51,906 nt of DNA from Promethearchaeia archaeon (GTDB lineage Archaea > Asgardarchaeota > Lokiarchaeia > Sigyniarchaeales > SOKP01), in the NCBI GenBank assembly GCA_029856235.1, contig JAHQWP010000036.1, forward strand, positions 1-51,906, in the 5' to 3' direction. Within the stretch, counting starts at the first letter, position 1. Each line of letters opens with the position of its first letter. The translations under genes were made by a program, and so were the position numbers. Positions 49,103-51,023 of the stretch are shown here, one piece after another. A model generated the notes under the pieces. It saw nothing but the letters and a program-made list of their open reading frames with translations, did not search any database and was not told where the DNA came from.

Positions 49103-49538
49103 CACAGTTGAACTTAAAGACTTAGATGAAATTTACAATTTGGAAAGAAAATTTTTCAAGAAAGACGCTTTTTCAAAAGATTTAATTTTTAATTTGATTA
49201 TGAAGAATTTTTTCTTTTTTAAGCTGATTGATGGAGAATTATCAAATGAAATTATTGGATTTATCATAATTATTCAGGATCGAGAAGATAGAGTAAATTT
49301 GATTAATTTTTTAATCAGAAAACGCAACCAGAATAAAGGCTGTGGAACTTACCTTTTGAATTATACAATAAATAAAGTTAAAAAAATGCCTAATATAAAA
49401 ACAATTGTATTGAATGTGAACTCCAAAAATAAAGCGGCTATAAAATTATATCAGAAATTTAACTTTCGAATCGTTCAGAAAATAGAAAACTACTATCGGC
49501 AAAAGGAAGGCGCCTACTTAATGGTTTTGAACATTTAA
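49092..49538 (+). CDS. GNAT-family N-acetyltransferase (RimI-like)
   Basis: A 148-residue acetyltransferase. Motif A, the acetyl-CoA pyrophosphate loop, is RNQNKGCGTYLL; the downstream ITLNVNSKNKAAIKLYQKFNFR (with N-x-x-A-x-x-L-Y) is the usual motif B. Length and motifs resemble RimI-type N-terminal or amine acetyltransferases. It overlaps the upstream radical SAM gene by 11 bases, so is part of the same cassette; the substrate may be linked to that cassette. Confidence 0.85.
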   Translation: MRIDTVELKDLDEIYNLERKFFKKDAFSKDLIFNLIMKNFFFFKLIDGELSNEIIGFIIIIQDREDRVNLINFLIRKRNQNKGCGTYLLNYTINKVKKMPNIKTIVLNVNSKNKAAIKLYQKFNFRIVQKIENYYRQKEGAYLMVLNI

Positions 49539-49647
49539 TCTTTTTCTAAAAACCAAGACTTATAAATAAATTCTATTATAAATTTTGTACAGAACGCATT
49601 GATAATGTGCTCAAAAAAGGAAATAAAATTATAAATATTGAGTGATT

Positions 49648-49803
49648 ATGATGTCCTTAGGTGACGAATTAAAAGAACAAATCAAAAAAGGTGTGACTCT
49701 CCAAAAGGTTGACGAGGCAGACATGAAACAACGTGAAGAAGAGAAAAAGAAACGAATGGAAGAATTAGAAAAAGTAAAAGCAGCCTTAGGAGCAAAAGAT
49801 TAA
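49648..49803 (+). CDS. 51-residue WH2-motif-like protein (candidate actin-binding peptide)
   Basis: A short ORF with paired ATGs (49648 and 49651) after a TATA-like TTATAAATA-rich leader. Residues 5-21 read GDELKEQIKKGVTLQKV, which matches the WH2 actin-binding pattern (helix, x-L-x-x-x-I-x-x-G-x-x-L-x-x-V, as in N-WASP and thymosin-type peptides): L8, I12, G15, L18 and V21 occupy the conserved positions. A charged helix (EEEKKKRMEELEKVKA) follows to the end. Below the usual ORF length cut-off. It lies between the GNAT gene and pelota. The actin link is by sequence pattern only. Confidence 0.7.
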   Translation: MMSLGDELKEQIKKGVTLQKVDEADMKQREEEKKKRMEELEKVKAALGAKD

Positions 49804-49949
49804 ATTTTTTATGTTTTTCGTATTTTATTATTTTTTTTCTTTATATTTTGTAAGAAGACAGACTTAGATACTATTTATCTTCTTGTTTATACTATACTTA
49901 TTTATACACATTAATTATGCAAATTTGAAATTGGGAGTCTGTTATACCG

Positions 49950-51023
49950 TTGAAAATTCTGGAAATAGATAAAAAGAAAGAAAAAGTGTCTGTAAGGACT
50001 GAAGATTTAAACGATTTATGGACGCTATATAATGTTATTGATAAAAATGACGAAGTTTCAGCAAGAACTAACAGAAGGATTGTGTTAAAGGAAGGCTCTA
50101 AGGGAGAAAGAAAACAAATGAATTTAAGACTAAATGTTGAATCTGTCTCTTTCCATGAATTTACAAGTCGATTAAGGGTAAAAGGAACGATATTAGAAGG
50201 TCCAGACGATTTCGTTACATATGGGACATATCATACGTTCAATATAGAACCTGGACAAAAGCTAACAATAAAGAAGACCAAGTGGTTAAAGAGCGAAATA
50301 AAAAGTCTCAAAAAACCATCCACTTTCAAAACAGATTTTAATATGTTAATGATAGCAATAGAAACGGGACTAGCCACTATAGCTCTAATAACAAATTTTA
50401 GTCATAATAGGATTGCAACTATTAAAAAAAACATTCCTGGTAAAAGATACGAACAATCATTTAGAAATAAAGCTTACGAAGAATTTTTTAGTGATATAAA
50501 TAGAATTCTAATCGAAAAAATAAACAGCGTTAAGATAAATTCCATAATAATTTGTGGTCCTGGAAGCACGAAGGAACGTTTTAATCAATTTATCAACGAG
50601 AAAGCCCAAATTCCCAATCCTCCAAAGATTTTTTGCATTCAAGCTAGCTCTGGAACGGAAAGTGCTATTTTAGAGACGTTAAAATCGAAAGAACTAAAAA
50701 GTTTAAAGGAAAATGTAAAGGTTTTGCTGGAAACTGAGAAAATTGAAGAAATAATGCAATTATTTGCTACAAATTCCGACCTCATAGCTATTGGATTTAA
50801 CGAGATATCTCACGCAATTGAAAAAGGTGCAGTAAAAGAATTGTTTTGCGCCGATATTTTAATAAGAGGAGCTTCAAAAGAAAAAAAATTACAAATCGAG
50901 AGTATTTTAAACGGAGTTGAGAAAGTAGGTGGAATTATTCACATTTTAAGTAGTGAACACCCAACTGGGCAACAGATAATTGATTTAGGGTCTCTCGTTG
51001 CAATTTTAAGGTATAAAATTTAA
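49950..51023 (+). CDS. pelA: Archaeal Pelota (mRNA surveillance and ribosome rescue)
   Basis: A 357-residue protein homologous to Dom34/Pelota that recognises stalled ribosomes with aEF1A and ABCE1. The N-terminal Sm-like domain (LEIDKKKEKVSVRTEDLNDLW) and the conserved FTSRLRVKGTILEGPDDFV are followed by the eRF1-like central and C-terminal domains (IIICGPGSTKERFNQFI, GATNSDLIAIG-like stretch, and VHILSSEHPTGQQI). The GGQ motif is absent, as expected of Pelota. Starts at TTG 49950. Confidence 0.96.
   Translation: MKILEIDKKKEKVSVRTEDLNDLWTLYNVIDKNDEVSARTNRRIVLKEGSKGERKQMNLRLNVESVSFHEFTSRLRVKGTILEGPDDFVTYGTYHTFNIEPGQKLTIKKTKWLKSEIKSLKKPSTFKTDFNMLMIAIETGLATIALITNFSHNRIATIKKNIPGKRYEQSFRNKAYEEFFSDINRILIEKINSVKINSIIICGPGSTKERFNQFINEKAQIPNPPKIFCIQASSGTESAILETLKSKELKSLKENVKVLLETEKIEEIMQLFATNSDLIAIGFNEISHAIEKGAVKELFCADILIRGASKEKKLQIESILNGVEKVGGIIHILSSEHPTGQQIIDLGSLVAILRYKI

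Follow-up and report, generated by a model that had tools for sequence, protein, structure and literature searches.

True actin, profilin and gelsolin are all present in Asgard archaea. The Lokiarchaea, which belong to this group, are related to the forerunners of complex cells. Among the closest described actin-binding elements are the WH2 motif and the beta-thymosins, in which a helix is followed by an extended segment and a second helix. The spacing ahead of their L.KV-type residues varies, and the C-terminal helix of beta-thymosin runs toward the pointed end of actin. Within Asgard archaea, a WH2-like contact with actin is described for the linker of two-domain gelsolins, where it takes the form LVDV, LRRV or LKHV (PMC9433394). 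This linker is the only WH2-like element of Asgard archaea in the parts of open-licence full texts covered, a body of literature without bioRxiv preprints and most subscription papers. Profilin and gelsolin are named in the corresponding parts of PMC12050087 and PMC12993045, and profilin plus a small number of actin-binding proteins in that of PMC11853071; no Asgard WH2 or thymosin protein is named in these parts of the three papers.

The window, that is, the whole stretch of 51,906 nucleotides analyzed here, encodes a 51-aa protein (P0001) that is probably a lineage-specific WH2/thymosin-like module and a putative binder of actin monomers. Like the WH2 motifs of N-WASP, WAVE and MIM, the Loki module combines a helix, a short linker and L.KV in ungapped register with LLDQIREGAQLKKV, and it is likewise used in tandem. 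It differs from them in falling below the Pfam cut-off, in having LK in most stand-alone members where the second hydrophobic position of the WH2 helix has LL, and in adding a conserved 27-residue charged helix. With beta-thymosins, it shares the format of a small stand-alone protein, the N-terminal helix, an LKKT/V-like stretch and a C-terminal helix, and the orthologues of families f2 and f3 also share the longer linker, whereas the Loki C-terminal helix is far more charged. Thymosin is absent from the 25 Pfam families among the matches listed for 29 family members at E ≤10, where HMMER filters drop most weak matches, and the sole thymosin-type PDB match is a thymosin-cordon-bleu chimera (4pl8_H, E 4.5), the weakest of 10. 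The gelsolin element of PMC9433394 consists of four residues that connect two gelsolin domains, whereas the element described here has a gene of its own and is a module that can move between proteins. If our reading is true, a layer of actin-monomer control that is usually seen as eukaryotic would be placed in archaea; the module peptides are small enough to be synthesized and tested on archaeal and rabbit actin.

The stand-alone gene and its conservation

The 51-residue open reading frame claimed in the earlier note is real. Translation of positions 49648-49803 (+) gives MMSLGDELKEQIKKGVTLQKVDEADMKQREEEKKKRMEELEKVKAALGAKD and then a stop, and frames standing alone (34-108 aa) are among the matches to A1, a profile made from 29 stand-alone family members that contains no tandem repeats, in 69 of the 79 genomes of the same lokiarchaeal order. 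Residues 5-21 read GDELKEQIKKGVTLQKV, and the WH2-like placement of Leu, Ile, Gly, Leu and Val that had been proposed for them is exact in the translation. Since the frame opens with GTG at 49642, the likely start is ATG 49648 or ATG 49651; in the orthologue L003, Met is located at the second of these two positions. The T-rich DNA that follows the stop codon is a possible archaeal terminator, and no hairpin terminator was found within 49400-50100. Radical-SAM genes flank the GNAT-P0001-pelota set on either side (Table 1).

At E ≤0.01, A1 matches 73 of the 227 genomes of the phylum. These comprise 71 of the 79 genomes of the same order, none of the four from other orders of the class and two of the 144 elsewhere. 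The match lies only in a longer protein in G154 and only in an array in G049, and eight of the 79 order genomes have no match at this threshold (G017, G139, G035, G027, G141, G032, G047 and G043). Named relatives belong to Candidatus Lokiarchaeota at all 21 loci among the matches listed, and no relative was found on viral contigs. The pooled pN/pS was calculated from 45 pairs of 10 genus members, single pairs being noisy (dN 0.024/dS 0.076 for L003-L006 and dN 0.067/dS 0.076 for L001-L007). The frame at 49648-49803 is more than a chance ORF. The order rSAM-GNAT-ORF-pelota-rSAM is whole at 20 of the 21 named Lokiarchaeota loci (L080-L100), with L099 lacking only GNAT. GNAT-module-pelota is also present at the f2 loci L049 and L050 and at the f3 locus L041, so that these f2/f3 members are orthologues by position; no GNAT or pelota was found in the stretch examined at L046-L048 (f2) or at L030 and L110 (f4). 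The f2/f3 orthologues have 1-2 additional residues ahead of L.KV, which reads LKKV or LAKV in most of them.

In A3, an alignment of the N-terminal half with 21 rows of the f1/f4 form, L8, I12, G15, L18 and D22 are invariant and K20 is present in at least 90% of the rows. E32, R36 and E39 are invariant in A1, and over 37 modules L18 and R36 are the two near-invariant positions. Of the L-I-G-L-V pattern, the first four residues hold throughout A3, but residue 21 is P instead of V in several family members and G15 is not retained in most f2/f3 orthologues.

Table 1. Features of the P0001 locus, with coordinates in the window and the basis of each assignment
Feature	Coordinates	Strand	Basis
GNAT acetyltransferase, conserved neighbour upstream of P0001	49092..49538	+	PF00583 E 3e-13; synteny
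51-aa stand-alone WH2-like protein (P0001)	49648..49803	+	translation, orthologues, pooled pN/pS 0.29
N-terminal helix, residues 4-14, carrying L8 and I12 and predicted to occupy the actin cleft	49657..49689	+	AlphaFold2; conservation
Residues 15-22 (GVTLQKVD), extended, LQKV as counterpart of LKKT/V	49690..49713	+	AlphaFold2 non-helical; aligned to N-WASP QLKKV
C-terminal helix, residues 23-49, highly charged, R36 near-invariant, without WH2 counterpart	49714..49794	+	AlphaFold2; A1
T-rich stretch, possible archaeal terminator	49804..49850	+	inference from sequence 3' of P0001 stop
Pelota (eRF1 domains 1-3), conserved neighbour downstream of P0001	49950..51023	+	PF03463 E 2.3e-30, PF03464, PF03465; synteny

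Comparison of the module with WH2

The AlphaFold2 model of P0001, built from 21 rows (mean pLDDT 84.8, pTM 0.40), predicts a helix at residues 4-14, an extended segment at 15-22 and a helix at 23-49, which is the element order of WH2 and beta-thymosin. The N-terminal helix followed by an extended LKKV, a trait of WH2, is thus present in the predicted structure. Foldseek with the model of the 51-aa protein gave no matches. The L...I..G..L+K(V/T) pattern of WH2 is found in the conservation of A3 and in the ungapped profile alignment. By contrast, the charged C-terminal helix, which the earlier note considered typical of WH2, is the better conserved half of the family but has no match in WH2 (hhalign score 6.2 for this half), and R36 is without a WH2 equivalent.

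Formal membership of the family in the Pfam WH2 entry (PF02205, curated cut-off 23.1 bits) is not borne out. The profile search that the earlier note had proposed as a check returned no PF02205 match for P0001 and none in its own genome at E ≤10, and the cut-off was passed in none of the 227 phylum genomes; of the 29 family members, one matched at E 0.076. Over the 227 genomes, 92 matches to PF02205 were obtained at E ≤1. Four of these belong to the P0001 family, three being stand-alone (G045:C436, G039:C344 and G041:C202) and one an array (G046:C363), and six to a protein of family f8 described below; part of the remaining ones was inspected. Weak matches to PF02205 also occur in seven of 14 control genomes. 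DUF3006, CCDC47 and similar scattered weak Pfam matches were taken as helix noise.

More sensitive comparisons gave a different picture from that of Pfam. Among 177,635 distinct PDB sequences, the best match of A1 is N-WASP (3m3n_W, E 0.014), a value that adds up three motif repeats aligned in register; taken singly, these motifs have E-values of 18 to 300 with A1 and of 18 to 460 over A1 and A3 together, and none is significant alone. N-WASP chain 2vcp_D was matched at E 0.27, and most of the other eight matches correspond to the charged helix, including weak coiled-coil-type matches. With A3, 11 matches were obtained, three of them WH2, namely, 3m3n_W (the best, E 0.0096, again summed), 2vcp_D (E 0.48) and the metastasis suppressor 1 entry 2d1k_C (E 1.2), and six of them designed, repetitive TIM barrels. 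A reversed-profile control yielded a single match, which is not WH2. The WH2 reference set for hhalign and HMM comparisons consisted of 11 canonical eukaryotic motifs, assembled by us rather than downloaded; it is small and canonical and therefore favours a match. Against this set, hhalign aligned the N-terminal half without gaps at E 7.2e-6 (score 22.5) and the whole module at E 7.7e-5. Because hhalign E-values are pairwise, shuffle and window controls were used. None of 1000 column shuffles reached the score of 22.5 (maximum 19.5), and none of 377 overlapping windows from four neighbouring genes reached 22.0, the hhalign score with rows from the named loci (maximum 16.8). When an HMM of these 11 motifs was run against the six-frame ORFs of the gathered loci, the family member L090 came first (E 0.0026); P0001 itself reached only E 0.82 and ranked lower than several unrelated fragments, part of which had entered the set through PF02205. 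The claim of a WH2 motif thus holds marginally in the PDB search, in the hhalign comparison with its shuffles and windows and in the reversed-profile control, but not in Pfam. The resemblance of P0001 to WH2 is strengthened in the sense that the protein may work like WH2.

Arrays and fusions carrying the module

Array proteins of ~490 aa are present in four f2 genomes, with nine modules in G042, eight in G046 and seven each in G049 and G050 according to profile A4. These counts are partly circular, because A4 was itself built with repeats from L031 and L032 and with the two modules of L039; with A1, which has no repeats inside, 2-4 modules per array are detected at E ≤0.01. Twelve tandem repeats alone match WH2 with a score of 17.2 (E 1.3e-4, reached in none of 500 shuffles), which barely exceeds the best natural window (16.8). 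WH2 is the sole Pfam match at E ≤0.1 of the L031 array (494 aa, E 0.072); the L032 array has no Pfam match. As far as readable, the neighbours of the L031 and L034 arrays are not cytoskeletal. In both f2 genomes examined, a gene judged by eye to be YggS-like is found close to the array gene (L031:3802-4458, L034:91-735), suggesting that the array locus is at least partly conserved.

Profilin and the module are joined in one ORF in G034 and G142, i.e., in two of the 79 order genomes (full-length match). The module half was recognized at E 2.6e-9 and 4.8e-9 by a profile that does not contain the fusion. The profilin half is similar to solved Asgard profilins (5zza_P, E 5.9e-11; 7pbh_A, E 4.3e-9; 5yed_A, E 3.5e-8), of which 5zza_P and 5yed_A are labelled uncharacterized in the PDB and are taken by us to be Asgard profilins; against Pfam profilin it has E 0.0035, below the cut-off. 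The fusion is thus like 5yed, 5zza and 7pbh in its profilin half and differs from them in the joined WH2-like module. A fusion of profilin with a WH2-like module was not found in the available parts of the open-licence literature. As for longer profilin proteins that were detected by means of the fusion protein, the 15 that were fetched do not carry the module (best module-profile E 0.098). Thirteen of these 15, from 13 f1 genomes (L195-L200, L202-L206, L208 and L209; 419-445 aa), consist of a profilin-like domain, a winged-helix-like region, presumably TrmB-like, and a C-terminal domain; L201 and L207 are without the winged-helix-like region. The profilin fold inside a likely DNA-binding protein was unexpected. 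Since profilin-like domains also join winged-helix-like regions, the fusion with the module is no proof of a cytoskeletal role.

The other architectures are Ras GTPase-module-RHH (RHH, ribbon-helix-helix), LRR-module-RHH, RHH-module and a coiled-coil-like protein with the module at its end. In the Ras-like GTPases and LRR proteins (L142, L143, L149, L039; L144-L146), the module is followed by an RHH-like domain, and L039 and L149 contain two module copies each. Small RHH-like proteins bearing the module are encoded in the own genome (contig C64, L037:2384-2776) and at L036, L150 and L151, the module being C-terminal in L036, L037 and L150 and N-terminal in L151. The RHH assignment is weak (E 8e-6 to 0.045, with DUF6290 and NikA-like matches assumed by us to be RHH-type), and in the LRR proteins the RHH region was assigned by eye.

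Putative actin partner and alternative readings

The actin of the own genome (P0002; PF00022, E 2.1e-132) has HC1 actin (9wc4) as its nearest PDB chain and is identical to yeast actin at 227 of 370 residues. At the cleft and pointed-end positions that we listed, the cleft residues Y143, G146, T148, G168, I341, I345, L346, L349, T351, F352 and M355 are identical to those of yeast and D24/D25 are E/D, whereas the listed pointed-end positions are less conserved, with 39, 40, 61, 62 and 203 changed. Judging from these residues, the WH2-binding cleft is conserved in the organism's own actin, which, like the profilin fusion, speaks for the WH2 reading. Co-occurrence with actin is uninformative either way, because actin was found in all 14 genomes checked, 12 of which are without the module by A1. 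Further support comes from G139, one of three g5 genomes that have no stand-alone form (g5 being a genus). Here, a gene for a 169-aa protein with the module and an RHH-like part (L240:1163-1669) is located directly upstream of an actin frame (L240:1673-2830) on the same strand, the gap being the 3 bases of the stop codon. Its module has E 6.8e-4 with A4 and is not detected by A1. Relatives of the 169-aa protein are present in 17 of the 79 genomes, and actin stands next to the module gene at one of 37 loci, comprising the relatives of the G139 protein and a further 20 loci with arrays or fusions.

The actin binding of the module, its geometry and its sequestering or assembling activity are what we infer, as follows. 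Stand-alone P0001 would bind the eukaryote-like actin of its own organism, chiefly in the monomeric state. Its N-terminal helix (L8 and I12) would occupy the cleft formed by subdomains 1 and 3 of actin, LQKV (18-21) would run up the actin face and the charged helix (23-49) would continue toward the pointed end. Stand-alone copies might buffer or sequester actin monomers, and modules joined to profilin or present in 7-9 copies might bring monomers to a site or align several actins. A more far-reaching scheme, which we put forward as doubtful, is a Lokiarchaeal actin toolkit derived from one WH2/thymosin-like module, with a near-universal monomer-binding peptide, a profilin-WH2 fusion, an array of 7-9 modules that nucleates or measures actin filaments, and modules coupled to Ras GTPases and to DNA-binding RHH domains, in one case encoded just ahead of actin. 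Signalling and transcription could then respond to the level of free actin, much as they do through the MRTF system of eukaryotes.

Besides the Pfam result, several observations count against the WH2 reading, namely, the conserved C-terminal helix without a WH2 match, the pelota neighbour, the presence of actin where the module is absent, the modules joined to RHH-like, LRR and Ras domains and the low number of loci (one of 37) with an actin neighbour. The GNAT-module-pelota arrangement at 20 of the 21 named loci and at L049, L050 and L041 (f2/f3), together with the charged helix being the most conserved part, would suit a translation-linked small protein that acts with pelota or the ribosome via this helix, its WH2-like N-terminal half being convergent. 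We consider this unlikely: modules are found elsewhere in profilin, GTPase, LRR, RHH-like and array proteins, loci L046-L048 (f2), L030 and L110 (f4) have no GNAT or pelota in the stretch examined, and the N-terminal half is itself conserved and beats both shuffles and natural windows in the comparison with WH2. Similarly improbable is a generic helical protein-protein adaptor of Lokiarchaeal signalling and transcription proteins whose likeness to WH2 is incidental. Several larger architectures are indeed Ras-, LRR- or RHH-like, the C-terminal helix has weak coiled-coil-type matches in the PDB, and R36 and L18 are near-invariant in all 37 modules; however, the best match across the PDB is WH2 and no other adaptor, the array matches WH2 by itself, a profilin fusion exists, and one module gene lies directly upstream of actin.

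An archaeal precedent for a different kind of actin-binding helix is arcadin-2, which reportedly controls the crenactin filaments of an archaeon outside the Asgard group (PMC5173319). Arcadin-2 is a groove binder. A helix of this type, tied to WH2 by function only, is a very improbable identity for the module, since the WH2 match takes in the L.KV stretch after the helix. No arcadin chain is found among the PDB matches either, a weak test as chains of <20 residues are outside the library.

Beside the WH2/thymosin-like module of P0001, a second motif of this kind may occur in a protein of ~315 aa from another Asgard family, f8 (38 genomes). Six of the 92 weak PF02205 matches fall in this one protein (L101, L105, L118, L119, L121 and L152 in G214, G212, G213, G055, G197 and G216), which is TPR-like by eye and, in the case of L152, without a Pfam match. 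Its central motif, QAELKAx(I/L/V)xGGxxLKKA, has invariant Q, E, L, K, A, second G and L in the 18 loci parsed out of 30. The motif alone resembles WH2 weakly, with two of 300 shuffles reaching its score, and is close to the Loki module, with none of 377 windows doing so; we regard it as a candidate second WH2-like element.
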